Source: a virus. From it: a DNA stretch of 43,936 bases. Of the stretch, positions 12,860-24,426 are shown piece after piece. Positions within the stretch are counted from its first letter, which is position 1; every line of letters starts with the position of its first letter. A model generated the notes under the pieces. That model did no database searches. It had not been told where the DNA came from and saw nothing but the letters and a program-made list of their open reading frames with translations. Location: positions 1 through 43,936 of the IMG/VR virus record IMGVR_UViG_3300044844_000961, one strand, 5' to 3'. A program made the position numbers and the translations under genes.

Positions 12860-13110
12860 ATACGAAATGAGGCAAGGGTTTTGTATGTCCTTTTGCGGCG
12901 TTTTTCATTTAAGGCTTTGGTCGCCGCCTCTAGTTTTTCAGCCACAAATTGAATGTCCCTGCTTGCGGTAATTCCTCCACCGCTATTGTTTGTAAATTCA
13001 GAGCGGTATTTTATTTTTAAGGTTTCGATTTCAACCTCTAATTCATCAACGGAAAAAGATCGGTAAATCAGCAAGTGGTCGGCAGGCATACTAATTGCCC
13101 TCCCTGTCAA
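12856..13110 (-). CDS. gpW-like head completion / head-tail joining protein
   Basis: This 84-residue protein sits between large terminase and portal, the position of lambda gene W. It is mostly helical, with FSVDELEVEIETLKIKYRSEF and ASRDIQFVAEKLEAATKALNEKRRKRT and a basic C terminus, matching the gpW helix-turn-helix layout in length and charge. It overlaps the terminase gene by 20 bases and the portal start by 4 (ATGA). Confidence 0.72.
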   Translation of the reverse strand: MTGRAISMPADHLLIYRSFSVDELEVEIETLKIKYRSEFTNNSGGGITASRDIQFVAEKLEAATKALNEKRRKRTYKTLASFRI

Positions 13111-14863
13111 CAGCCGTTGGCTCGCTTACGGCAATCTTCGTTATCATTGCCGCCACAAGATTCATGCACTCGCAGTCAAAAGCGTGGTTGTCTTTGCGGA
13201 TTTGAAGCCATTCGTAGCTCACTCGTCCCTTGGCATCCACCCGTTCTTCGCGGATTTCGGCGGTAACTTCATCGAGATATTGTTGCGATATGTCGGCTGG
13301 AATTTCCCACGATGAAGCGAGTCCTCTCATGTGTTGCAACAGAATGTCTTTAGTCAAATGGTTAGCCCAAAGAAACAGCTTAACAGGCTTGAGTTTTCCT
13401 TGCAGAGAAGTTCCGATTGCGGGGTCTGCCCGTGAACTCGTCCAGCATCGGCGAACCCCATCGTGAGAATAAGCCTGCACTCCGTCTCCCTTGAATGCCT
13501 TCCACTTGTGTTCGCTTTTGACGATTTCCTGATAAACAACCGTGGCGTTGTAGCCCGTATCAATCACAACATCATCGTTGTCCACGCCAAGATCGACAAT
13601 CAACTGCCGCAACTCGTCCCAATTCCACACGCGCCCGTAGTCAACAAGTCTGCTTGTCCCTCCGTTGCCCCAAGCCCGACACAGGTAAACCAAGTGGTCT
13701 TTCTGCACATCGACTGACAAGAACCTTCGTTTCTCATCTTTCCAAGTGCTACGAAGCGTGTAGTCGGTTTTGCGTTCCTCAAGCCACTTCCAATCTTTGA
13801 TGTCCTTCATTGCATCCTCCCAAGGTTGACCAAGGGATTCGTTGATGAATGATTTCAGTTTTTCATGGTCGTGCCATGTTAGGCTTTTGTGCGCCTGTAA
13901 AAACTCCTCGACCAAATCGCGCCACCTAACCCACGGGGGAAGCATGGCATTCCAAGTGAAGCTAATTCGGTTTGCGGGAGCGTCAGGATTGTGGGCAATC
14001 CACTCACCACTTAAAGCGAGGGCGCGTCGATCCTGCGGCTTGTCATGGATATGGTGATTGCACTTCGGGCATTCCAAGTGAATCGTCGGGGCAAGTTTGT
14101 CGAAATTCCAAACCCCGTTTGGTCTGGTTTGTTCGTTGTCGTCCCACTTTAACTGCTCCCATTGAATGTGGAAGCGTCCTTTGCACTTCGGGCATTGAAC
14201 ATAGAAGTGCCGCTGATCCCCGCTCAAAAAGGCTTGATGAACCTCGTCGTGTTGCGAGTCCGGCGTTGAGATAATAACGCGCCTTGCATTCCAGAATGCC
14301 CGTGTTCGCTTTAAAACCATCTCCAATGCCCCTGCCGGATAGTTGCGAACTTCATCCAGAAAAAGCCATCGGATCGGCTTTGATTGCAGTTTTGAAGGAC
14401 TGTTTGCGCCGTTTACGATCAGAGGCATCGAGGCAAAGTCGATTTCAGTTCCGCGAATGCCGCCTCGTTCTTTCGGCATCAGGTCGGCAACGGGCTTGCA
14501 GTCTTCAAGTGTTGGCAACAGTCGTGTTCTGAAAAATGTCTTTGCTTCATCCTGTGCCGCCATAACCCACATGGCGGGGCCAGCATCTTCGGCAATCGCC
14601 CACGCCAACAGAATCATAATCGTTTGCGTTTTCGATGACTGCGCCGAACACATCACGGAGATTTCCGAAACGGCATTATCCGAAAACACCTCCATCAGAG
14701 ATTTTGTCCAAGGTGCGGTGTCGGCGCGAAACTTGCCAGCAAACGGCGATGTCTTGTCGATTACAATGTTGTCCTCGGCCCATGCCCACGGAGGGCGGCG
14801 GTCAATAGGTCGCCACGCCTCCCGCGCCGTTTTCTCAATAAGGCTAATCCCACTTTTTTTCAT
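13091..14863 (-). CDS. Terminase large subunit (GpA family)
   Basis: This 590-residue packaging motor has the lambda GpA layout. A degenerate Walker A-like SAQSSKTQ lies at 73-80, Walker B WLFLDEV at 166-172, and the coupling-type segment RRVIISTPDSQHDEVHQAFLSGD follows. Two CPKC motifs near 225 and 265 form a Zn-binding pair typical of GpA. The nuclease domain begins with FLSVDVQKDHLVYLCRAWG and continues with VVIDTGYN and HAFDCECMNLVAA. It cuts and pumps DNA through the portal. GpA terminases usually work at cos sites; no cos site was identified here. Confidence 0.93.
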   Translation of the reverse strand: MKKSGISLIEKTAREAWRPIDRRPPWAWAEDNIVIDKTSPFAGKFRADTAPWTKSLMEVFSDNAVSEISVMCSAQSSKTQTIMILLAWAIAEDAGPAMWVMAAQDEAKTFFRTRLLPTLEDCKPVADLMPKERGGIRGTEIDFASMPLIVNGANSPSKLQSKPIRWLFLDEVRNYPAGALEMVLKRTRAFWNARRVIISTPDSQHDEVHQAFLSGDQRHFYVQCPKCKGRFHIQWEQLKWDDNEQTRPNGVWNFDKLAPTIHLECPKCNHHIHDKPQDRRALALSGEWIAHNPDAPANRISFTWNAMLPPWVRWRDLVEEFLQAHKSLTWHDHEKLKSFINESLGQPWEDAMKDIKDWKWLEERKTDYTLRSTWKDEKRRFLSVDVQKDHLVYLCRAWGNGGTSRLVDYGRVWNWDELRQLIVDLGVDNDDVVIDTGYNATVVYQEIVKSEHKWKAFKGDGVQAYSHDGVRRCWTSSRADPAIGTSLQGKLKPVKLFLWANHLTKDILLQHMRGLASSWEIPADISQQYLDEVTAEIREERVDAKGRVSYEWLQIRKDNHAFDCECMNLVAAMITKIAVSEPTAVDREGN

Positions 14864-15501: not shown

Positions 15502-15915
15502 ATGAAAACAAGCTATTACACACACGCAAACTCCCTAGATAAAAAGAAATTTTTCCTCGTTCGCACTTCTATTGGTTCCCCAAGATTTTTAAAATGCGAT
15601 TGCAATGCGTCTTTTCTTGCGCCGGAACAGGATTGGCTTGATTTAAGTGAGGCATCGTATCGTCGGAAATATATTTCAAAGCTCAACAAGTCTGGCGTTG
15701 CATATTTTAAGTCGCAACTTGCTCAAATCCAAAAAGCCGCAGGCAAACGCGAGATCGTTCTCCTTTGCTACGAGTCTCTTTCGCCAGAAAAGGTTGCCGA
15801 GGGTCAGTTTTGCCATCGCAGGATTTTTGCCGATTGGTGGGAGCAACAAACTGGCGAGAAAATAGAGGAAGTTACCCCTCATCGCTCTCGACCTGTTCAG
15901 CCGACGCTTCTTTAA
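15502..15915 (+). CDS. DUF488-like protein
   Basis: This 137-residue protein has RTSIGSPRFLKCDCNASFLAP near the N terminus and IVLLCYESLSPEKVAEGQFCHRRIFADWW at about 85-113. The L-L-C-Y-E ... CHR pattern is characteristic of DUF488 proteins, whose biochemistry is unsettled. It is the only plus-strand gene inside the minus-strand packaging cluster. It converges on the ParB-like gene with a 44-base overlap of coding ends. A role linked to the PAPS-reductase/ParB pair or to DNA protection is inference from neighbourhood. Confidence 0.8.
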   Translation: MKTSYYTHANSLDKKKFFLVRTSIGSPRFLKCDCNASFLAPEQDWLDLSEASYRRKYISKLNKSGVAYFKSQLAQIQKAAGKREIVLLCYESLSPEKVAEGQFCHRRIFADWWEQQTGEKIEEVTPHRSRPVQPTLL

Positions 15916-16573
15916 GAAGTCCTTGGAGTTTTCTGCCGTCGATATATCGGTTGTCTTCCAGACTAAGAGCGTCCGTGAAATCTTTCCTTGCGGCATAATT
16001 TTTAAATACCACGACACAGTAAAAATCGGGGTCGTTGTTGTCTTGCGCTCCTGCTACCAACTGTTCATTAGCTTCGCGGGCTTTCCGTAGTTGTTCAGCC
16101 ATGACTTCAATAGCGGAGTTTTCTGCCGCATCAGGAGACTCCCCGAACAATTGGTAAACATCGCTTAAATCAAAGCCCGTGTTTTCGAGTTCAATTTCCG
16201 CGTCTTTCAAAAGGGAGTTGAGCTTTTCCAAATCCCAATCGCCTTGTGCGTTGGAATTGTTCAGAAAAACATTCAGTTCCTTTTCTGTTTTCTCATCAAC
16301 ATCAACAACGGCGACAGACATCGTGTAGTCCATCGTGCGCTCCAAATCGTCCAGCGCGGCGACTCGTTGATGTCCGCCAACTATGAATCCTGTTCGCTTA
16401 TTCCAGCAAATCGGCTGAACAAGCCCAACTTTTCCCAAGCTGTCTCGGAGTTTTTTTCGCGAATAATCGGAAATCTGGCGAGGGTTATACGGAGCGTTCT
16501 TGATTTCGCTTCGGTGAATCTGTTCTACGACAAATTTTTGAAACTCTGTCTGCTTGCTGTCTTTTTTAGCCAT
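15872..16573 (-). CDS. ParB/Sulfiredoxin-like nuclease-domain protein (IbrB-like)
   Basis: Residues 15-100 carry the ParB N-terminal fold: NAPYNPRQIS, then LRDSLGKVGLVQPICWN and IVGGHQRVAAL (GHQR at 67-70), the nucleotide-binding/hydrolase signature of phage ParB-like proteins. The remaining 130 residues are charged and helical with an acidic end. It overlaps the PAPS-reductase-like gene by 8 bases and forms a pair with it, as IbrA/IbrB-type pairs do in phages and prophages. The pair's biochemical role is not established. It is probably not a partition protein, as there is no ParA or parS-like array. Confidence 0.86.
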   Translation of the reverse strand: MAKKDSKQTEFQKFVVEQIHRSEIKNAPYNPRQISDYSRKKLRDSLGKVGLVQPICWNKRTGFIVGGHQRVAALDDLERTMDYTMSVAVVDVDEKTEKELNVFLNNSNAQGDWDLEKLNSLLKDAEIELENTGFDLSDVYQLFGESPDAAENSAIEVMAEQLRKAREANEQLVAGAQDNNDPDFYCVVVFKNYAARKDFTDALSLEDNRYIDGRKLQGLLKEASAEQVESDEG

Positions 16574-17231
16574 ACATTTCCTCTCGTTTGATTACTGCCT
16601 CTGCATACGGAAACCATTTGAGTATCCGCTGAAAATCATCGGGGAAATTCTTGTAAACAAAGAGTAGTGAAGGCGTCGAAAGATCGACCCCTGTTGCGGA
16701 TGCCGCAGTGGACATTTTCGGAATAGGGATTCCCCTTACTTTGCAATACGCAAGGACATCCAATTTGTTCCATTTGCGTATAGGGTAAACCATGTCTGTC
16801 CAACCCTTCGTTGTGTTGAAGAATCTTCTTCGCCAAAGCGAATCCGCATCCTTTGCGCCCGTGACTATGTATTTTGTTCCGGCTTCTGTCCGAGCAAGAT
16901 CGTAAACATCGCGAAGCGTCCAATCCGGCAGTGTTTCGGCATTCTTCCCCTCGTCGCAATAAATCCCTTCTTTGAGTGCGCGAATTAAAACCCAGTGCGG
17001 ATACTGCACAATTTGAACATTCCACCTTGCCCTTGCGTAATCCAAGGCATCCTCCGTGCATTTTAAATTTGGAACGAAGTGCATGAAGAAACAATGCACC
17101 GTCTTGAAGACCCTTGAACACAAATCAAGGCACACCAAACTGTCCTTGCCACCGCTGAATGCTACGGTGATCGAATCGCTTTCTTTTTGTTTTTCCCTTA
17201 AAAGCTCAAGGGTGTCCTGCCAGATTTGCAT
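16566..17231 (-). CDS. PAPS-reductase-like PP-loop enzyme (IbrA-like)
   Basis: This 221-residue protein has the PP-loop ATP-pyrophosphatase motif VAFSGGKDSLVCLDL (SGGKDS at 26-31). Family-typical elements follow: an internal LKCTEDALDYAR, TGAKDADSLWRRRF near 130, and MVYPIRKWNKLDVLAYC near 147-163, which positions the Arg/Trp pair found in PAPS reductase and DndC-like proteins. The N-terminal 35 residues are short, giving a compact enzyme. It would activate a substrate by adenylation or move sulfur. In phages, paired with a ParB-like partner, it may modify DNA or affect host sulfur chemistry; that is inference. The leader (ATCAATCAACCCAATCAA) lacks a Shine-Dalgarno sequence. Confidence 0.88.
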   Translation of the reverse strand: MQIWQDTLELLREKQKESDSITVAFSGGKDSLVCLDLCSRVFKTVHCFFMHFVPNLKCTEDALDYARARWNVQIVQYPHWVLIRALKEGIYCDEGKNAETLPDWTLRDVYDLARTEAGTKYIVTGAKDADSLWRRRFFNTTKGWTDMVYPIRKWNKLDVLAYCKVRGIPIPKMSTAASATGVDLSTPSLLFVYKNFPDDFQRILKWFPYAEAVIKREEMYG

Positions 17232-17593: not shown

Positions 17594-17627
17594 AGGGTGA
17601 CAGACACCCTAGTTTTTGCGATTATAT
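17594..17627 (+). promoter_or_regulatory. Operator and candidate early promoter
   Basis: A near-palindrome AGGGTGACAGACACCCT occupies 17,594-17,610; its core GGTGACAGACACC differs by one base from the GGTGTCNGACACC motif found elsewhere in the genome. GTGACA (17,597-17,602) inside it matches five of six -35 bases, and an AT-rich ATTATA lies 18 bases further on. A repressor bound here would cover the promoter of the putative structured RNA and early operon. Confidence 0.55.
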
Positions 17628-17629
17628 GG

Positions 17630-18243
17630 ACAGTTCTTTGACAGACAGACGAAGCGGAAAGGTGAGAGGCAAGTCCCTCTCCCGACAACGAGTGCCACAG
17701 CACCGAAGGGTAAACCCGATGCAGAGCCAACGGCCAGAATGTGACGAGCAGGACGGAAACGACAAGGCGAAGTGCGGAACCTAAAAAAAGACCTTCAGGA
17801 GTGGCAGTAGCGAAAGGCGAATGTCGGGTAGGTCAGCACAGACCAGATGGGCGGCGAGCGAAAGCGACAAAGTGTGACGAACGAACCTAGTAAGTGGAGT
17901 CTCAAACGGAGCGGAAAGCCCGAGAAACAGAAGTTGTAGCAAACACGGCGCAAGAAAAACCCTGCACCGGAAACTTGCCACCCTGCGATAGCAGTAAGGG
18001 CAAGTGGTTCTGCGGACAGCAACGACACTCGGTAAACCTTTCCCATCAGCAAGTGCCTGTGACTTGCCGACCGCCGCTTATTGCTAACCTCGCAAACCGT
18101 GCTGGCAAAAACACCATGCCGTTCATCGGCTCTCAAAAGTTGCCACCCTGCGAGGGGCTAATGCCGCCAAACTTGCAAGCGCAAGTCTGCTCGTCCCAAG
18201 CCGAGAGAAAAGTGCAGAGGGGCCAATCAAACCATGCAAACAA
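17630..18243 (+). ncRNA. Putative large structured non-coding RNA (early leader)
   Basis: No convincing gene exists in these roughly 610 bases on either strand. The plus strand is full of short perfect stems with purine-rich loops: GAGAGG/CCTCTC (17,664-17,681), GTGC/GCAC, GGG-TAAA-CCC, GGTC/GACC, ACTTGCC/GGCAAGT (17,973-18,005) enclosing CTGC-GATA-GCAG, GCAAGT/ACTTGC (18,049-18,067), CCTCGCA/TGCGAGG (18,088-18,155) and ACTTGC-AAGC-GCAAGT (18,171-18,186). CCGAG/CTCGG (17,920/18,028) and CAGAA/TTCTG (17,928/18,008) nest around the ACTTGCC hairpin. Phages are known to carry large ornate RNAs such as GOLLD and ROOL; identity with these cannot be judged by eye. It could also be a long structured mRNA leader. 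Confidence 0.6.
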
Positions 18244-18450
18244 ATGAAACTGAAAACCAAATCGCCCGCCGCTACTGCGGCATCCACCGCCGAAATCGAC
18301 ATCTACAAGGGCAACCCCATGCTTGTCCTTAAATCCTCCCCCGACACCAAATGGCCGTTCCAGTTCGGCCTTGGCAAAGCCAAGTTGATCTTGGCTCACA
18401 TTGCCGAGATTGAGCGTTTCGTTGAATCCAACGGCGCATCCATCGACTAA
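18244..18450 (+). CDS. Small early protein, unknown function
   Basis: This 68-residue protein directly follows the structured stretch. It contains IDIYKGNPMLVLKS and KWPFQFGLGKAKLILAHIAEIERFV, a strand-helix layout I associate with small conserved phage proteins. The leader GCAAACAA before the ATG lacks a Shine-Dalgarno sequence. Function is not known. Confidence 0.78.
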   Translation: MKLKTKSPAATAASTAEIDIYKGNPMLVLKSSPDTKWPFQFGLGKAKLILAHIAEIERFVESNGASID

Positions 18451-18457
18451 CCCTGCG

Positions 18458-18499
18458 GGGTTGCCACCGCAACCCTGCTCAACCAACACACACACGACA
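18458..18499 (+). promoter_or_regulatory. Early leader module: hairpin plus (AC)nGAC
   Basis: A 7-bp hairpin (GGGTTGC 18,458-18,464, loop CACC, GCAACCC 18,469-18,475) is followed by an unstructured run ending ACACACACACGACA directly before ATG 18,500. There is no Shine-Dalgarno sequence. The same hairpin plus AC-run design recurs before other early genes. Confidence 0.65.
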
Positions 18500-19741
18500 A
18501 TGCCTAGATTAAAAACCACATCAGTTGATACCCCTGAACTGCGCGAACTAGTTGCGAGCATCGTTTCTTCATGCGAAGTCGATATTGACTACAAAGAAGT
18601 CTGCTCAACGCTGACCTCTGACGCCAAATCCTTCAATACCATTGCAGGAGCGGTTGCCGGACACGCTCCGTTGATTAACGCGATGGCTACTATTGCCGCC
18701 GATAGAGCGAACGAAGTCGCTTATATAACTGCTATAAAGCAATCCGAAGCGGTTGCCACCCGCGCTGTTGATACCATCAAGCAAGCCATCACCGCCGCCC
18801 TTGCTGAACCCGAAGCAACTCCTGCCAAGGTTCGGCGCAAACTCAACTCGGTTCTGCCAAGCGGCAAGGCCAATGTTGTGCAACAGCAGATCGAAAGATT
18901 CTGCGCTCCGAAAGCGGCACTCATTCCTTTGTTGCTTCTCGGAGAGCAGGGGGCTGGCAAGACCTACGGAGTTCGTCTTGCCGCTAAAAACTACGATCAC
19001 TTTGTCGAAGTTCCCTGCCATGCAGGAATGGAAGCAAAGGATTTCATCGGCGGGCCATTGCCTGACGGAAATGTTTTTAGTTGGACTGACGGCGGAGTTG
19101 CCAGAGCGTTCCGCCTCGCGGCGGCTGGCAAGAGCGTCCTCCTTCTTGTCGATGAGATATTCCGTGTGCCAGCATCGCAACGATCTGTGTTCCTTACTTG
19201 TCTGTCACCAGACGAGACGGGGCCAGAGCCAGTGTATAAGCTCAAGACTGAGCGAGTCATCGGAGGCAAAGGCGATGTGCGACACACAGAAGAACTCTGT
19301 GCGCCAGTTGCAAACCTGTCCATCGTTGCCACGACCAACATCGGCGGTCAGTTCAATGTTAGTGAAGACGATCCCGCGATGGCGGAACGCTGGCAGTTTC
19401 ACTATGTTTACTGCACGGCGGACGAAATCCAACGCGTCATCAAGAATGTCCTGTTGGAATACAGTGCAAACGAAGCAGAGGCTAATGAGTTGTCTGTAAA
19501 ATACACTGCCTTTTGGCAGAAGGCTTCTGAGTTGAAGAAGCTCGGCACGATTAACCTTGCGCCAACCATTCGCACACTGACCCGTGCGGCGAAAATTGCC
19601 ACCGCTCACACTGCCATTGCCCATCATCAAGCCGTGATGACCGTAGCCCCCATGTGGGCCGGAACCGACTTGGATGGTCGCCTTAACACAGCACAAATCG
19701 AAAACATTGCCCTCGCATCGAAAGGAGCCTTCAAATGCTAA
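18500..19741 (+). CDS. MoxR-type AAA+ ATPase
   Basis: This 413-residue protein has a helical N-terminal part (1-140) and a MoxR/CbbQ-like AAA+ core: Walker A GEQGAGKT (148-155), Walker B LLLVDEI (214-220), sensor-1 ATTN (277-280) and a likely arginine finger in AERW (297). The ATG at 18,500 is chosen because the recurrent (AC)nGAC leader precedes it and the upstream gene ends at 18,450; an in-frame ATG at 18,401 would overlap that gene. The stop overlaps the start of the VWA gene by 7 bases. MoxR ATPases remodel targets with a VWA partner, as in RavA-ViaA, CbbQ-CbbO and NorQ-NorD. The target here is unknown. Confidence 0.9.
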   Translation: MPRLKTTSVDTPELRELVASIVSSCEVDIDYKEVCSTLTSDAKSFNTIAGAVAGHAPLINAMATIAADRANEVAYITAIKQSEAVATRAVDTIKQAITAALAEPEATPAKVRRKLNSVLPSGKANVVQQQIERFCAPKAALIPLLLLGEQGAGKTYGVRLAAKNYDHFVEVPCHAGMEAKDFIGGPLPDGNVFSWTDGGVARAFRLAAAGKSVLLLVDEIFRVPASQRSVFLTCLSPDETGPEPVYKLKTERVIGGKGDVRHTEELCAPVANLSIVATTNIGGQFNVSEDDPAMAERWQFHYVYCTADEIQRVIKNVLLEYSANEAEANELSVKYTAFWQKASELKKLGTINLAPTIRTLTRAAKIATAHTAIAHHQAVMTVAPMWAGTDLDGRLNTAQIENIALASKGAFKC

Positions 19742-21375
19742 CTAATAATCAACGCTATCGTTTCCAGACCAAGTTTCTTGCTTTGGAAAGTGAAGCCGCC
19801 TTGCCAGAGCCAGTAATTTTTAGCTGGCTCAACCCGACAGAACAACCTCCTACGGGTTGCTGGTCGTTCAAGGACGGCAAGCACATCATCCGCGTGAATA
19901 TCAATTGCGCGGACAAATCGGTTGCCACCCGCTCTGCGCGGGCGGCGTCAACATTCGCAGAAATGATTGCTCGCCATGAGTTCTGCCACGCTGAATTAAC
20001 GGAACGCGATTTCGTTAAGCAAAATGAAATGTGCAAGCGGGTCGGATGTTCCTTCCGCCTTCTCAATATCTTTGAGGATGCGCGGATCGAGCATAAGAAG
20101 CGTGTTGCTTCCACCAAGCCGTTCGGTTGGTTGCGTTGGGAGAAACCCGCTGAACCAAAGAGTCCTGTTGGTATCTTCTTCTGGTTCCTTCAGCATGAGT
20201 TCATGCCGTATCACGGCGGGTATGATTTGCTTCTGCCGAAGCAATTAGATCGCGCCAGTATTTATCCTGTGAAGGTTGAGTCGTTTGGTAAGGCTCGCTC
20301 TCGGAAGTTGTATCATAACATGAAAGCAGTTGCCGAGTCGCACGGCATTCCGCCAACAACGATCACGCTTGTTTATCGCTTCTTTGTCGAAGTGACTCGC
20401 ACTCCAAACACGATGAGTTTGGAAGCGTGGCTGAAACGCTGGATGGAGTTGTTTCCAGAAACCAATGCAGAAGGAAACGGCATCGGACAGATTGTGGAAG
20501 GCTCTCATTGCGGTGACCAGATCGCGCCAGAAATTGTAAACGCCGATCATGTTCCCACCGTAGGCAAGGGCAGTGGCAAGCCAGCCGCCGTGCCACCCAC
20601 TGCGCTGTCTCGCGACGAGACTCGCCTTGTTGGGCCAAAGGATCGCGATGAAACTGGCGGCGAGCCGATCAAGGCTGGCCCCCATATCAAGCCTTCACTG
20701 TATCCCGACGAACAGACAATTGCGCTAGGCATTGCCAATTTAATTGGCCGCGCCTTCCGTTGCCGTGGCGACGACAAGATCAAGACGCTCTCTAGTGGCA
20801 AGCGGCTTAACATTCGCGACATCGCTTGCGGCAATGTTGCCAAGCCGTTTGTGCGCCGTGAAGTTCTGCCTGTTGGGGTTCCCAAGGTTGCCGCCATCTT
20901 CGACTTTAGTGGTTCGATGATGGGCAACCCTTCCAAGAATGCTCGCATTCTATTGTTTGCGCTCAATCGACTAGCAAAGAGTGGCGCAATTAAGTGTCAT
21001 GCTTACGCCACCCAAAGCGGTCGCGGTTGCTATACCGATCAAGCTCTGCCGTGCCGCGAAGAGAATATCAATTGGGAAGCGGTTGGCGGATCAGAAGGTA
21101 TGCGCCTGTTCTTCACGCAAAAAATGAGTGAGTTGCAGGACTTTGATTCGGTTATTGTTTTCACCGATGGCGACATTGGTGATAAAGGAACCGATTTCAG
21201 TCCCCTTCATTCACGCGGCATCTTCCCTGTTGGTGCGTATGTAGCAAACATATCGCCGGAAGCTCTGTTAGCACAGCAACAGCAGTTGAGCCGCTACTTC
21301 GACAAGGGCATTGCTCGGCCCGACATGATTAGTCTGGCGAGCGACATTGCCCGACTCATCACCAACTCGCGGTGA
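19735..21375 (+). CDS. Metallopeptidase-like/VWA protein, partner of MoxR ATPase
   Basis: This 546-residue protein has an N-terminal zincin-like motif HEFCH (81-85) and a candidate third ligand in NIFEDARIE (111-119). After a Pro/Gly-rich linker, the C-terminal third is a von Willebrand A domain with MIDAS residues DFSGS (390-394) and FTDGD (476-480). The layout is that of VWA partners of MoxR ATPases (CobT/NorD/ViaA type) with a peptidase-like N-terminal domain. It starts at ATG 19,735 with AAAGGAG upstream and is translationally coupled to the ATPase. Whether the HExxH is catalytic cannot be told. Confidence 0.88.
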   Translation: MLTNNQRYRFQTKFLALESEAALPEPVIFSWLNPTEQPPTGCWSFKDGKHIIRVNINCADKSVATRSARAASTFAEMIARHEFCHAELTERDFVKQNEMCKRVGCSFRLLNIFEDARIEHKKRVASTKPFGWLRWEKPAEPKSPVGIFFWFLQHEFMPYHGGYDLLLPKQLDRASIYPVKVESFGKARSRKLYHNMKAVAESHGIPPTTITLVYRFFVEVTRTPNTMSLEAWLKRWMELFPETNAEGNGIGQIVEGSHCGDQIAPEIVNADHVPTVGKGSGKPAAVPPTALSRDETRLVGPKDRDETGGEPIKAGPHIKPSLYPDEQTIALGIANLIGRAFRCRGDDKIKTLSSGKRLNIRDIACGNVAKPFVRREVLPVGVPKVAAIFDFSGSMMGNPSKNARILLFALNRLAKSGAIKCHAYATQSGRGCYTDQALPCREENINWEAVGGSEGMRLFFTQKMSELQDFDSVIVFTDGDIGDKGTDFSPLHSRGIFPVGAYVANISPEALLAQQQQLSRYFDKGIARPDMISLASDIARLITNSR

Positions 21376-21383
21376 TTGCTACA

Positions 21384-21493
21384 CCGCTCCGTGCCACCGT
21401 GCGCGGAGCGGAAAGCAGTCCCCATTCGGGGTTCCCTGCATAAGCAGTAAACAAAACCCTGCGCCGACAGGTTAAATAATGGCAACACACACG
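21384..21493 (+). promoter_or_regulatory. Structured leader with hairpins and AC run
   Basis: The gap after the VWA gene has two strong hairpins, CCGCTCCG/CGGAGCGG (21,384-21,411) and CCCC-ATTC-GGGG (21,420-21,431). It then reads ATGGCAACACACACG just before ATG 21,494. This matches the hairpin plus AC-run leader seen at other early genes. Confidence 0.55.
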
Positions 21494-21700
21494 ATGGCAA
21501 AGCCAACAACAAACAACACCAACGCAACTGCATCCTTGAATGAGGATCAACTTGAACAAGTCCGCGCCGTTGTAGCGGAATACCTGATGAGCGACGAGTT
21601 CGATGTGAAACTCAATCACGCCGATGTGGTTGATGCTTGCAAGACTGCGTTGCAGGACAAGGAAGTGCAAACAAGCCTCTCCGAAATCCTCAAGAAGTAA
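21494..21700 (+). CDS. Small acidic early protein, unknown function
   Basis: The protein is 68 residues from ATG 21,494 (MAKPTTNN), or 73 from ATG 21,479. The later start is favoured because the ACACACACG leader lies directly before it and would otherwise be coding. After a Thr/Asn-rich start the sequence is helical and acidic (EDQLEQVRAVVAEYLMSDEF, then LQDKEVQTSLSEILKK). No family is recognised. Confidence 0.7.
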   Translation: MAKPTTNNTNATASLNEDQLEQVRAVVAEYLMSDEFDVKLNHADVVDACKTALQDKEVQTSLSEILKK

Positions 21701-21712
21701 CATCGAGTCAAA

Positions 21713-21738
21713 GCCCTGCCGTCAATCGGCGGCAGGGC
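21713..21738 (+). other. GC-rich hairpin before small membrane gene
   Basis: A 9-bp perfect stem (GCCCTGCCG with CGGCAGGGC, 8-base loop) lies 12 bases after a stop codon and 7 before the next ATG. There is no T run after it, so it is probably not an intrinsic terminator. It may be an RNA processing or translation-control element. Confidence 0.6.
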
Positions 21739-21745
21739 ATCGACT

Positions 21746-21856
21746 ATGAAACGCAAACTTAATCTCCGTGTTGAGCAGGATAAGTTTTACGGACGCTTGT
21801 TCGTTCTTGTCGTGCTTCTTTTTATTCTATCAATACAAATTATATCAATCCTATGA
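21746..21856 (+). CDS. Small single-span membrane protein
   Basis: This 36-residue gene reads MKRKLNLRVEQDKFYGR, followed by a hydrophobic stretch LFVLVVLLFILSIQIISIL that ends at the stop. The TGA overlaps the ATG of the next gene (ATGA, 21,853-21,856), supporting real translation. The basic N terminus predicts a cytoplasmic start and a single membrane helix. It may be a membrane-acting peptide of the early region; function unknown. Confidence 0.6.
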   Translation: MKRKLNLRVEQDKFYGRLFVLVVLLFILSIQIISIL

Positions 21857-22317
21857 ATCCTAATGTTCGCTCACTAATTCAATTCAATCATTTCATCTTT
21901 GATGAGATCGAAACCAACTGCCGCACATATAAAAAGCAAGAGTTTGACGAGCTAATTGTCGTCGAATTTGACTTGCACTTTGCCACCAAAGGTGGGGGTT
22001 ATGCCTTCCCTTGCGATTCGGCTGGCAATGTTATCGTTGAAGAACTGCCCGCAGAAGCAGGAGTCAACTACAACTTCTGTTTAAGCTGTGCAGAGAAAGG
22101 GTGTTGGGACAAAATCCATGTTCGCCCCTACATCAAACGCTATCGCACTTGCGATTGTGGCAGTGGGTTAGACCCCGAAGAGCGATACGATGCGCGAGGC
22201 ATTTATCTGACTCGCGCTTGCTCAAAATGTGTTGGCGAAAAACTTCGCGGCTACCGTCACGAGGTTCTGACCAACTCCAACTACGAATGCGACGAACTCA
22301 TTGAATCAGATTACTAA
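21853..22317 (+). CDS. Cys-rich conserved early protein, unknown function
   Basis: This 154-residue protein has Cys pairs suited to metal binding: C-x-x-C in FCLSCAEKGC near 76-82, C-D-C near 98-100 and CSKC near 127-130, with YDARGIYLTRACSKC between. It ends ECDELIESDY. The last 32 bases of the gene recur at 23,252-23,283. The function is unknown; a Zn-ribbon role in nucleic-acid or protein contact is possible. Confidence 0.8.
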   Translation: MNPNVRSLIQFNHFIFDEIETNCRTYKKQEFDELIVVEFDLHFATKGGGYAFPCDSAGNVIVEELPAEAGVNYNFCLSCAEKGCWDKIHVRPYIKRYRTCDCGSGLDPEERYDARGIYLTRACSKCVGEKLRGYRHEVLTNSNYECDELIESDY

Positions 22318-22318
22318 T

Positions 22319-22585
22319 ATGCAACTATACGAAATCTATCCAATCGTTGAGGGCGAGTTTACTTTCCCTCTCACGCCCGAACCCGTCTCGCTTCAAGAAG
22401 CAACCGACATCTTGCATCGCCGGATGTCGCTTCTGTTGACGCAAGGCTATTGGCGAAACTGCCGAGGCGAGCAAGTCCCGCTTGATGAAGTTGGTTTCAA
22501 GATTGTCCCTGCGACTCATTACGAAGATGAGGATGAAGACGACATAGACGAGGCAGGGCAACTCAACGGAGCTTGGCATCCATGA
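22319..22585 (+). CDS. Small early protein, unknown function
   Basis: From ATG 22,319 this is an 88-residue protein (MQLYEIYPIVEGEF). That start lies one base after the previous stop and is preferred over an in-frame ATG at 22,301 that overlaps the upstream gene. An alpha/beta part (SLQEATDILHRRMSLLLTQGYW) is followed by an acidic tail with EDEDEDD. The ATGA overlap with the next gene shows coupling. No family is recognised. Confidence 0.72.
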   Translation: MQLYEIYPIVEGEFTFPLTPEPVSLQEATDILHRRMSLLLTQGYWRNCRGEQVPLDEVGFKIVPATHYEDEDEDDIDEAGQLNGAWHP

Positions 22586-22782
22586 GTCCAGTTCACACCG
22601 CAACAATCGACACCGAGACTTGGGACGCGCCAGCAAGTTCCAATTTGTCTCGGCGCGAACATCCAATCCTCCGAATCCGTGGCAAGTGGCTGGAGAATTT
22701 GGGCTACACGAAAAAATCCAAAGTGCAGATAACAACTTTGGAAAACGGAAATCTTCTCATCACAAAAATTTCGGCGGCTTGA
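22582..22782 (+). CDS. SymE-like / AbrB-fold small protein
   Basis: From ATG 22,582 (ATGA overlap with the upstream gene) this is 66 residues. The C-terminal half reads PILRIRGKWLENLGYTKKSKVQITTLENGNLLITKI, matching the SymE-type pattern of L-R-L-x-G-KWL-x-x-x-G-F followed by basic residues and a strand. SymE proteins are SpoVT/AbrB-fold toxins or nucleoid-binding proteins. An early phage copy may be a DNA- or RNA-binding effector; the SymE link is by pattern only. Confidence 0.68.
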   Translation: MSPVHTATIDTETWDAPASSNLSRREHPILRIRGKWLENLGYTKKSKVQITTLENGNLLITKISAA

Positions 22783-22805
22783 GCAACCGACGATCAACAA
22801 ACCCC

Positions 22806-22836
22806 GCCGATGCTCTCGGCAAACACACACGACAAA
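22806..22836 (+). promoter_or_regulatory. Early leader module: hairpin plus (AC)nGAC
   Basis: A 5-bp hairpin (GCCGA/TCGGC, 22,806-22,820) is followed by AAACACACACGACAAA and ATG 22,837. As at other early genes there is no Shine-Dalgarno sequence. This leader supports starting the gene at 22,837 rather than at the earlier in-frame ATG 22,810. Confidence 0.6.
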
Positions 22837-23238
22837 ATGATACAAACACACAAAAACATAATCGCAGTCCTCTCAGAAGTGAGAGTTAAATTAGACACCA
22901 ACACACCGAGCATTCCATTCCTCGGTGAACTGTCACATCAAGTTGCCAAAGCAATCGACTTGATTAAAGAGCCAATCAACATGAATGAGTTCTTTCACGA
23001 TCAAATCAAAATCTCTTGCGAGGAGTTGTTTAATGATCGGGTTGAGGAAAGAATTGATGGTTTAGAAGAAAGATTGAGTGACCACGAAGACGATATTGAG
23101 GATTGCAAGTCGCGCATTGAATCCTGTGAAGACGACATCAGCGGATTGCAGGACGAGGGCAAGGGGTTAGATGCAGACGGGGTGCGCGTTATAATAGCCA
23201 ACGCCTTCGTCGATGCTTCCAAGGCAGTCACCGCATGA
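22837..23238 (+). CDS. Acidic coiled-coil early protein
   Basis: This 133-residue protein (start MIQTHKNIIAV) has a helical N-terminal half and an acidic coiled coil in the second half (EERIDGLEERLSDHEDDIED, then CKSRIESCEDDISGLQ). The TGA at 23,236 is followed in the same frame by 14 more sense codons that encode RQKSECDELIESDY, of which ECDELIESDY is also the C terminus of another early protein. That suggests an interrupted or fused tail. Confidence 0.75.
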   Translation: MIQTHKNIIAVLSEVRVKLDTNTPSIPFLGELSHQVAKAIDLIKEPINMNEFFHDQIKISCEELFNDRVEERIDGLEERLSDHEDDIEDCKSRIESCEDDISGLQDEGKGLDADGVRVIIANAFVDASKAVTA

Positions 23239-23251
23239 AGACAAAAATCAG

Positions 23252-23283
23252 AATGCGACGAACTCATCGAATCTGACTACTAA
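23252..23283 (+). repeat. Duplicated gene end encoding ECDELIESDY
   Basis: These 32 bases match 22,286-22,317 with three differences, all at third codon positions and synonymous (Ile, Ser, Asp). The encoded residues and the TAA stop are unchanged. The stretch is in frame with the TGA-terminated coiled-coil gene just upstream. Confidence 0.85.
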
Positions 23284-23293
23284 AATCCCGCGA

Positions 23294-23351
23294 GTGCAGG
23301 GTGTGCAAGTTGCCACCCTGCACCGCACAACCCAAACAACACACACACGAC
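23294..23351 (+). promoter_or_regulatory. Early leader module: 10-bp hairpin plus (AC)nGAC
   Basis: A perfect 10-bp hairpin (GTGCAGGGTG 23,294-23,303 with CACCCTGCAC 23,314-23,323) has GTTGCCACCCTGC in its 3' half, a string shared with the structured RNA stretch. It is followed by AACACACACACGAC and ATG 23,352. No Shine-Dalgarno sequence is present. Confidence 0.7.
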
Positions 23352-23567
23352 ATGAGAAATCTAAATCAGTATTCCGACACGGAAATCATTGAACGCCTCG
23401 CGAATGCGATGGTTACTGGCGCAAATTGCGGAGGTCACACAAAAGCGCATTACAACTATGTGGCGGTAGATGAATACCGAGCCGAACTTGAATCGCGTGG
23501 AGTTTCCATTCCAAGCAATAAGGAACTCTATGCACAGGGGGCATTTAACGGAGTTGGAAGTTGGTAA
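23352..23567 (+). CDS. Small early protein, unknown function
   Basis: From ATG 23,352 this is a 71-residue protein (MRNLNQYSDTEIIERLANAM). The start is set by the AC-run leader; an earlier in-frame ATG at 23,301 lies inside the hairpin. It ends with SNKELYAQGAFNGVGSW. Its composition is ordinary for a soluble small protein. No family is recognised. Confidence 0.7.
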   Translation: MRNLNQYSDTEIIERLANAMVTGANCGGHTKAHYNYVAVDEYRAELESRGVSIPSNKELYAQGAFNGVGSW

Positions 23568-23576
23568 TTACAAAAT

Positions 23577-23834
23577 ATGAGCAAAGTATTCCGCATTACT
23601 GGATCGTCCTCCCTTCAAGCCATGATCGACGCAATCGACAAATACGAGCCAACTGAAAAAGAGTTGGACGAATTTGAAGAGGCGATGCGACTCGGCCCGC
23701 CAAAAGAACCTAAACCGCGCAAGTCAGCGAAGTTGGTTCCTAAAAAAGAACCTGCAATCAATCAGCTAAATATAGCTGGCATGGCATCGAGCTTCAAAAA
23801 GTTCTGCGATAGCCACGGCTACATTTGCAGTTGA
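23577..23834 (+). CDS. Small early protein, unknown function
   Basis: This 85-residue protein has an acidic helical N-terminal half (DAIDKYEPTEKELDEFEEAM) and a Lys/Pro-rich centre (PPKEPKPRKSAKLVPKKEP). It is the last gene before the strong terminator at 23,845. The C-terminal segment FKKFCDSHGYICS carries two Cys. No family is recognised. Confidence 0.7.
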   Translation: MSKVFRITGSSSLQAMIDAIDKYEPTEKELDEFEEAMRLGPPKEPKPRKSAKLVPKKEPAINQLNIAGMASSFKKFCDSHGYICS

Positions 23835-23844
23835 TAAAACGCAC

Positions 23845-23882
23845 ATCCCGTCCCTGCTTCGGCAGGGGCGGGATTTTTTTTT
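23845..23882 (+). terminator. Strong intrinsic terminator of the first early operon
   Basis: A long GC stem (ATCCCGtCCCTGC with GCAGGGgCGGGAT) closes on a TTCG tetraloop and is followed by nine T. It ends the plus-strand early operon and overlaps the stop of the convergent minus-strand gene. Confidence 0.93.
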
Positions 23883-24426
23883 AGTTTTCGCAAGACCAAC
23901 TCTCGGTCTGCACTTTCAAGCGCGGCATCGGCTCGTCCGAAGAAAAACTGCGGTCAAAGAACAGAACCCTATTCGTCGGCTGAATCGTTAGCCGTCCGTT
24001 GTCGAGTTCGATAAACATAAACTCTTTCGCCTGCTCTGGCTCGTCGCTGAATCCGTCTTCCATCGGAGCGACTGTGAACAAGTAGTCTCCATCATACGAC
24101 TTGCCGCCCACCATTGCCCTGCATCGAAGTCCTCGGAGGTAAGTGTATTCATGCGCCACCCACTCGTATCCGTAGCAATCCCACATCTGCGCTTGTTCCG
24201 GCGACCATTCCGGCTCTGCGTCCTCGCGAAACGCGATGGCGTGTGGTGGCAACTCGCGATAGACTGCGCCAAAATCAAAGCGGATATTGCACCCCCAAGT
24301 TCGACCGGGCCTACTGACTAGCCCGAACCAGATAACATCCACAAAGCCGCAGGGCTGTTCGTGTGTGAACCGTGAATCAATGAAAACATATTTGTGTTTC
24401 GGTAGTGATCCAATCAATCGCGCCAT
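23881..24426 (-). CDS. Isolated minus-strand early-region protein, unknown function
   Basis: This 181-residue protein is the only minus-strand gene inside the early region. It is rich in aromatic residues and acidic clusters (MWDCYGYEWVAHEYTYLRG, AEPEWSPEQAQMWDC), with a beta-rich C-terminal third ending in a Phe/Arg pattern VLFFDRSFSSDEPMPRLKV. The gene is convergent with the operon before it and faces the control region behind it, so it may be a lysogenic or moron-like gene. No family is recognised. Confidence 0.7.
   Translation of the reverse strand: MARLIGSLPKHKYVFIDSRFTHEQPCGFVDVIWFGLVSRPGRTWGCNIRFDFGAVYRELPPHAIAFREDAEPEWSPEQAQMWDCYGYEWVAHEYTYLRGLRCRAMVGGKSYDGDYLFTVAPMEDGFSDEPEQAKEFMFIELDNGRLTIQPTNRVLFFDRSFSSDEPMPRLKVQTESWSCEN

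Follow-up and report, generated by a model that had tools for sequence, protein, structure and literature searches.

Genomic context of the locus

The window analysed here, i.e. the whole stretch of 43,936 bp, is virus record IMGVR_UViG_3300044844_000961. A 127-bp direct terminal repeat is found at its ends, and the genome is therefore most likely that of a complete, circular (or circularly permuted) phage, in agreement with an earlier note on this DNA that had described the gene pair studied here as phage-encoded. Gene functions across the genome were assigned by PHROG scans. The features considered are:

6.8-15.5 kb, minus strand: major head protein, portal and both terminase subunits (PHROG)
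13091-14863, minus strand: TerL
15872-17231, minus strand: adjacent ParB-like (phrog_9353/620) and PAPS-reductase-like genes (PHROG)
17597-17625, plus strand: promoter-like site, GTGACA-17-GATTAT with an extended -10, the only match on this strand
17632-18243, plus strand: conserved non-coding leader RNA of ~600 nt, upstream of the pair
18155-18225, plus strand: predicted twister (type P1, RF03160) self-cleaving ribozyme at the 3' end of the leader
18244-18450, plus strand: conserved 68-aa protein encoded immediately before the ATPase, with 70-81% identity in the two closest phages
18500-19741, plus strand: MoxR/CobS-type AAA+ ATPase, 413 aa (motifs, Pfam and profile matches)
19735-21375, plus strand: CobT-like partner, 546 aa (motifs and profile-profile comparison)
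21479-21700, plus strand: conserved small protein of 73 aa directly downstream of the pair
21853-23834, plus strand: remainder of the putative unit, with ORFs of 154 aa (Cys-rich), 94 aa, 142 aa (coiled-coil-like), 88 aa and 85 aa
23845-23880, plus strand: intrinsic-terminator-like site with a 13-bp stem and T8, the strongest in the scanned region
23881-24426, minus strand: phrog_3704 gene, labelled 'ferredoxin' or 'PurM', converging on the pair's unit
26.6-29.8 kb, plus strand: exonuclease, replication-initiation and DnaC-like genes (PHROG)
30.7-31.8 kb: integrase (PHROG)

Given the integrase gene, the phage is probably temperate. The ParB-like and PAPS-reductase-like genes are 95-97% identical in the relative G002 and also adjoin the terminase genes in the divergent phage G001, forming a conserved two-gene unit. 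The phrog_3704 gene is typical of cyanophages, its best match being in Pseudanabaena phage Pam2 (52%), which hints at a cyanobacterial host in freshwater, or at genes exchanged with cyanophages; since the protein had no Pfam match, the names 'ferredoxin' and 'PurM' are doubtful. A linkage between 'PurM/ferredoxin' and CobS, suggested by the position of such a gene between the peptidase and CobS in P-TIM68, was dismissed as coincidence, as most of the 108 matching records suggest none. Relatives of TerL at 31-32% identity occur in Puniceicoccales MAGs, and the partner gene was absent from each of 387 genomes of that order's phylum.

The run of plus-strand genes at 18244-23834 includes the pair and ends at the terminator-like site. 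Promoter-like matches were overall fewer than in shuffled sequence, so that the case for a promoter at 17597-17625 is weak. The early-operon status that the earlier note gave to the pair is plausible: strand and neighbourhood are indeed common to the pair and the replication genes, but the terminator-like site lies between them and separates the two units.

The ATPase and its metallopeptidase/vWA partner

Both genes of the pair were recovered at these positions as a MoxR-type ATPase and a metallopeptidase/vWA partner with intact active-site motifs, on the same strand and with frames overlapping by 7 bp. The ATPase starts at ATG 18500; a longer frame opens at TTG 18401, but this start is unlikely because the relatives begin at the same ATG. 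A variable helical N-terminal region of ~115 aa is followed by an AAA_5 core, which passed the Pfam cut-off (E=5.7e-12). The core carries Walker A (GEQGAGKT, 148-155), Walker B (LLLVDE, 214-219), a sensor-type TTN (278-280) and an ERW with the candidate finger R297, and the Walker and sensor residues, previously read as intact, proved invariant in a five-sequence alignment. In a PDB profile search the nearest relatives were NorQ, CbbQ and midasin, and RavA gave no match at E<=1. A small domain common to the ATPase N-terminus and the flanking small proteins was rejected, as it did not score clearly above shuffled controls.

The partner consists of an N-terminal zincin-like domain, a linker and a C-terminal vWA/MIDAS domain. 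It matches no Pfam family, and the peptidase and vWA assignments therefore rest on motifs together with profile-profile comparison. The motifs are HEFCH (81-85) and NIFEDARIE (111-119) in the zincin-like domain, and DFSGSM (390-395) and FTDGDIGD (476-483) in the vWA domain. They are not due to chance, because across five homologues with identities down to 24-26% the zincin residues H81/E82/H85, N111 and E114-E119 and the vWA residues D390/S392/G393/S394/M395 and T477/D478/D483 are all invariant (over the alignments of both proteins, identities go down to 24-35% while the motif residues remain unchanged). HExxH and the downstream Glu are thus kept across the partner family, which predicts a zincin metallopeptidase. 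The MIDAS had been described as intact, and this holds for DxSxS and TD...D, but not for the third position, where the usual Thr is replaced by G-x-E-G, a small departure. AlphaFold models built from three-row alignments reached pLDDT values of 41 and 38 for the two proteins, too low for use.

Conservation and divergence of the pair

Close copies of both genes were found on two viral contigs, with identities of 76-77% for the ATPase and about 70% for the partner, and a profile search of the records of TerL relatives revealed more divergent pairs in G001/G030 and G027. Among the relatives in which both genes were located, the ATPase and partner are also adjacent in L003/L004, L002/L005, L075 and L076. 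Searches of 50,697 phage records with tblastn returned nothing for the partner at 1e-3 or for the ATPase at 1e-5; at E<=10 the ATPase had only sub-significant CobS matches. No cellular relatives of the pair were found in searches that covered pattern scans and one phylum.

Both genes are under purifying selection, with dN/dS values of 0.12-0.20 versus 0.01-0.03 for TerL, and amino acid identity to relatives is 64-77% for the pair versus 95-99% for TerL. The pair thus looks functional, yet appears to evolve faster than the packaging ATPase. Hypervariable stretches are located around residues 60-90 of the ATPase and 180-210 of the partner. Other genes of the region and several virion genes have diverged as well (33-80%), and because neighbouring small genes and these virion genes are affected, fast divergence is not specific to the pair.

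Relative to L003 (G002), identity falls sharply over 18244-22317, from 95-99% in the stretch that runs from the terminase to the PAPS genes to 67-77% in the pair and its small neighbours, and two ORFs near 22.8-23.6 kb are back at 92-99%. This drop could reflect either mosaic exchange or fast evolution.

A leader RNA ending in a predicted twister ribozyme

The leader at 17632-18243 contains no conserved ORF. It is about 92% and 86% identical at the nucleotide level to its two close relatives (over 750 and 728 bp), and its conservation exceeds that of the DNA immediately upstream and of most of the pair. The leader body matched no Rfam family even at permissive E-values. GOLLD and ROOL, large RNAs of phages and prophages (PMC12286853), likewise gave no match in the leader. 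Folding of the whole leader with RNAalifold gave almost no covariation support with three sequences; these are too alike, and no fold is therefore claimed for the body. Contigs L101-L103, which carry an 18-nt leader pattern, were discarded as chance matches in coding DNA.

The twister ribozyme predicted at the 3' end is well supported. The corresponding sites in the relatives are:

L003, 4444-4514, plus strand: twister ribozyme site
L075, 10016-9929, minus strand: twister ribozyme site

The window sequence scored 44.3 bits against RF03160 (E=4e-9) on a local stretch, below the gathering score of 67.2, and the L003 sequence scored 48.9 bits. In the divergent phage G001 a match of 31.7 bits occupies the corresponding place upstream of that phage's own pair. 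The pairs of both pseudoknots (T1 and T2) and of P4 are kept in four sequences, a divergent phage included, through compensatory changes, whereas P2, likewise with compensatory changes, is complete in two of the four and has a single C-U mismatch in the other two. If the ribozyme uses the usual twister U-A site, cleavage would fall between U18159 and A18160. The changes include CCC-GGG versus CAC-GUG in T1, G-C versus A-U in T2 and UGC-GCA versus UCAC-GUGA in P2.

It is conceivable, if rather doubtful, that the locus has two parts, i.e. an abundant structured RNA of ~530 nt freed by the 3' twister, followed by the mRNA of the machine, with RNA and machine acting together (for example as an RNP remodelled by the motor). 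Were this so, the locus would define a new class of large phage RNA and would link ribozyme processing to a CobS/CobT-like system.

Relationship to viral CobS/CobT-like pairs and other systems

All five ATPases of the family matched phrog_249 (phage CobS), and four of the five partners weakly matched phrog_459 'peptidase' (best 6.5e-4, single-sequence). A comparison set was assembled from CobS/CobT-like pairs or single members of ICP2, S-RIM44, SSU5, BUCTxx99, ChisanaKitsune, DSL-LC01, CRP-810, T5S1, P-TIM68, RHph_X66 and HCTV-2. With hhalign the ATPase family matched the viral CobS-like set at E=1e-17 and the partner family the viral CobT-like set at E=3e-18, the latter over the vWA part. The N-terminal peptidase slice alone matched the CobT-like set with 95% probability (E=3.9e-8), whereas none of 30 column-shuffled controls exceeded 0.4%. 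In this alignment HE..H faces HE..H and ED.RIE faces ED..IE; together with the invariant zincin residues, this bears out the peptidase-like N-terminal domain that the earlier note had pointed out. Judged from these profiles, both proteins are divergent members of the already described viral CobS/CobT-like (MoxR-vWA-metallopeptidase) pairs.

Such pairs are not mainly a bacterial speciality, contrary to what had been supposed for MoxR-vWA systems. In group 2.2 jumbo phages a MoxR-vWA pair has been described whose vWA protein carries a fused N-terminal metallopeptidase (PMC7824862, which also cites a peptidase-less MoxR-vWA system for the tails of Acidianus two-tailed virus), and CobS/CobT-like pairs have been described in tailed viruses whose hosts belong to eight orders (PMC8651126). 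The latter study points out that viral cobT usually bears a peptidase annotation, and another paper describes cyanophage cobS as a gene of unknown function (PMC9983427). ICP2 CobS alone matches 518 phage records. The CobS/CobT-like pair is, by these comparisons, a widespread mobile-element machine.

The jumbo-phage pair (ASV44729.1/ASV44728.2; PMC7824862), likened here by description only, resembles ours in that a MoxR ATPase lies next to a vWA protein with a fused N-terminal metallopeptidase, again in a tailed phage; unlike it, our pair is highly divergent and lies next to replication genes, and its phage, of 44 kb, has an integrase. To the viral CobS/CobT of cyanophages, ICP2, SSU5 and HCTV-2 the likeness extends to profile-level homology of both proteins, the HExxH...ED..IE and DxSGSM motifs and a replication-gene neighbourhood, whereas the window ATPase differs in its variable helical N-terminal region and the NCBIfam CobS/CobT models are not reached. 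The Marinobacter plasmid pMAQU02 encodes a CobS-type ATPase and a partner with HESAH...IEDIRIE and a vWA domain, and Verrucomicrobia genomes encode a partner type with HESAH...FEDWRVE and a vWA domain (likened on the partner alone). The pMAQU02 cassette (L096 2284-6734) comprises DUF3150, partner and CobS-type ATPase near RecT/lambda-exonuclease; in the Verrucomicrobia loci L097-L099 a DUF3150-like gene lies beside the HExxH-vWA partner. It is possible that DUF3150 is a third subunit of the machine, although none was recognised in the window. The logic of a MoxR ATPase plus a vWA partner is also that of RavA-ViaA and CbbQ-CbbO/NorQ-NorD. ViaA, CbbO and NorD are not known to have a zincin domain. 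Of the examples that the earlier note had named, RavA-ViaA and CbbQ-CbbO, the results point to kinship with CbbQ/NorQ, and with CobS/CobT, but not with RavA-ViaA.

Possible function of the pair

We tentatively favour, at a probability of about 0.4, that the CobS/CobT-like motor and metallopeptidase adaptor act in the DNA replication/recombination phase, remodelling or clipping a nucleoprotein complex. We surveyed 13 annotated regions around homologues, chosen non-randomly from search hits, with many genes unannotated and with Cece lacking an adjacent vWA partner. Genes for DNA replication or recombination (polymerase, clamp, clamp loader, primase, helicase, RecT/exonuclease) occur in nine of them, and no structural gene was annotated in any. 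The window pair shares its strand with the exonuclease, replication-initiation and DnaC-like genes, and the head genes are on the other strand. The AAA+ protein would form a ring motor, and the vWA protein would be its adaptor, docking via MIDAS and linker and presenting the substrate, which the adaptor's zincin-type metallopeptidase domain would cut or process as the motor remodels it. The target would be a nucleoprotein complex, of the host or of the phage, at the stage of infection when DNA is replicated and recombined, and the role one other than cobalt insertion or virion building. We infer complex formation as well as ATPase and protease activity, and likewise the timing and the target.

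Virion assembly or maturation, in which the motor would fold or assemble proteins of the tail or head that the metallopeptidase processes, has been proposed for the same architecture in jumbo phages (PMC7824862). The strand opposite to the head genes and the lack of annotated structural genes in the 13 regions make this unlikely here, as does the similar cassette beside RecT/exonuclease on a conjugative plasmid, which builds no virion. The earlier note had also raised a host-takeover or anti-defence module; in this reading the pair would unfold or break down a complex of host defence or regulation. Divergence much faster than that of TerL, with hypervariable stretches as expected of recognition surfaces, would suit such a role, but regional neighbours and several virion genes diverge likewise, in PADLOC the motor had only weak matches, at the ATPase level (best E=2e-4), and the partner had none, and no known anti-defence relative was found; we regard the idea as possible, though on the unlikely side.

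The least likely reading is auxiliary metabolism, in which viral CobST would join a host CobN/ChlH-type subunit to insert cobalt, serving B12 and class II ribonucleotide reductase. Cobalamin production has been put forward for viral CobST (PMC8651126), and phrog_249 is labelled 'porphyrin biosynthesis'. However, the NCBIfam models CobS and CobT (TIGR01650/TIGR01651) found nothing at E<=1 here, although they recognise most of the other phage pairs tested at 1e-18 to 2e-52. A six-frame search of the window for CobT was negative, with a positive Caulobacter control, and neither CobN nor ribonucleotide reductase was among the annotated ORFs (small ORFs were partly scanned). Moreover, chelation does not need a conserved zincin site, whereas invariant zincin residues recurring in phages, a conjugative plasmid and Verrucomicrobia are expected if the site works. 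Since the chelation, assembly and anti-defence readings are weaker, ATP-driven remodelling and cleavage in the DNA phase is the one that we favour.

The ribozyme-terminated leader is a more unusual feature than the pair itself and may deserve more attention, and it provides a concrete RNA to seek in phage transcriptomes. As for the pair, CobS/CobT-like pairs are some of the most frequently called 'auxiliary metabolic genes' of phages and are usually read as vitamin B12 genes. The intact peptidase site and the frequent association with replication genes suggest that many such phage pairs may be protein-remodelling machines.
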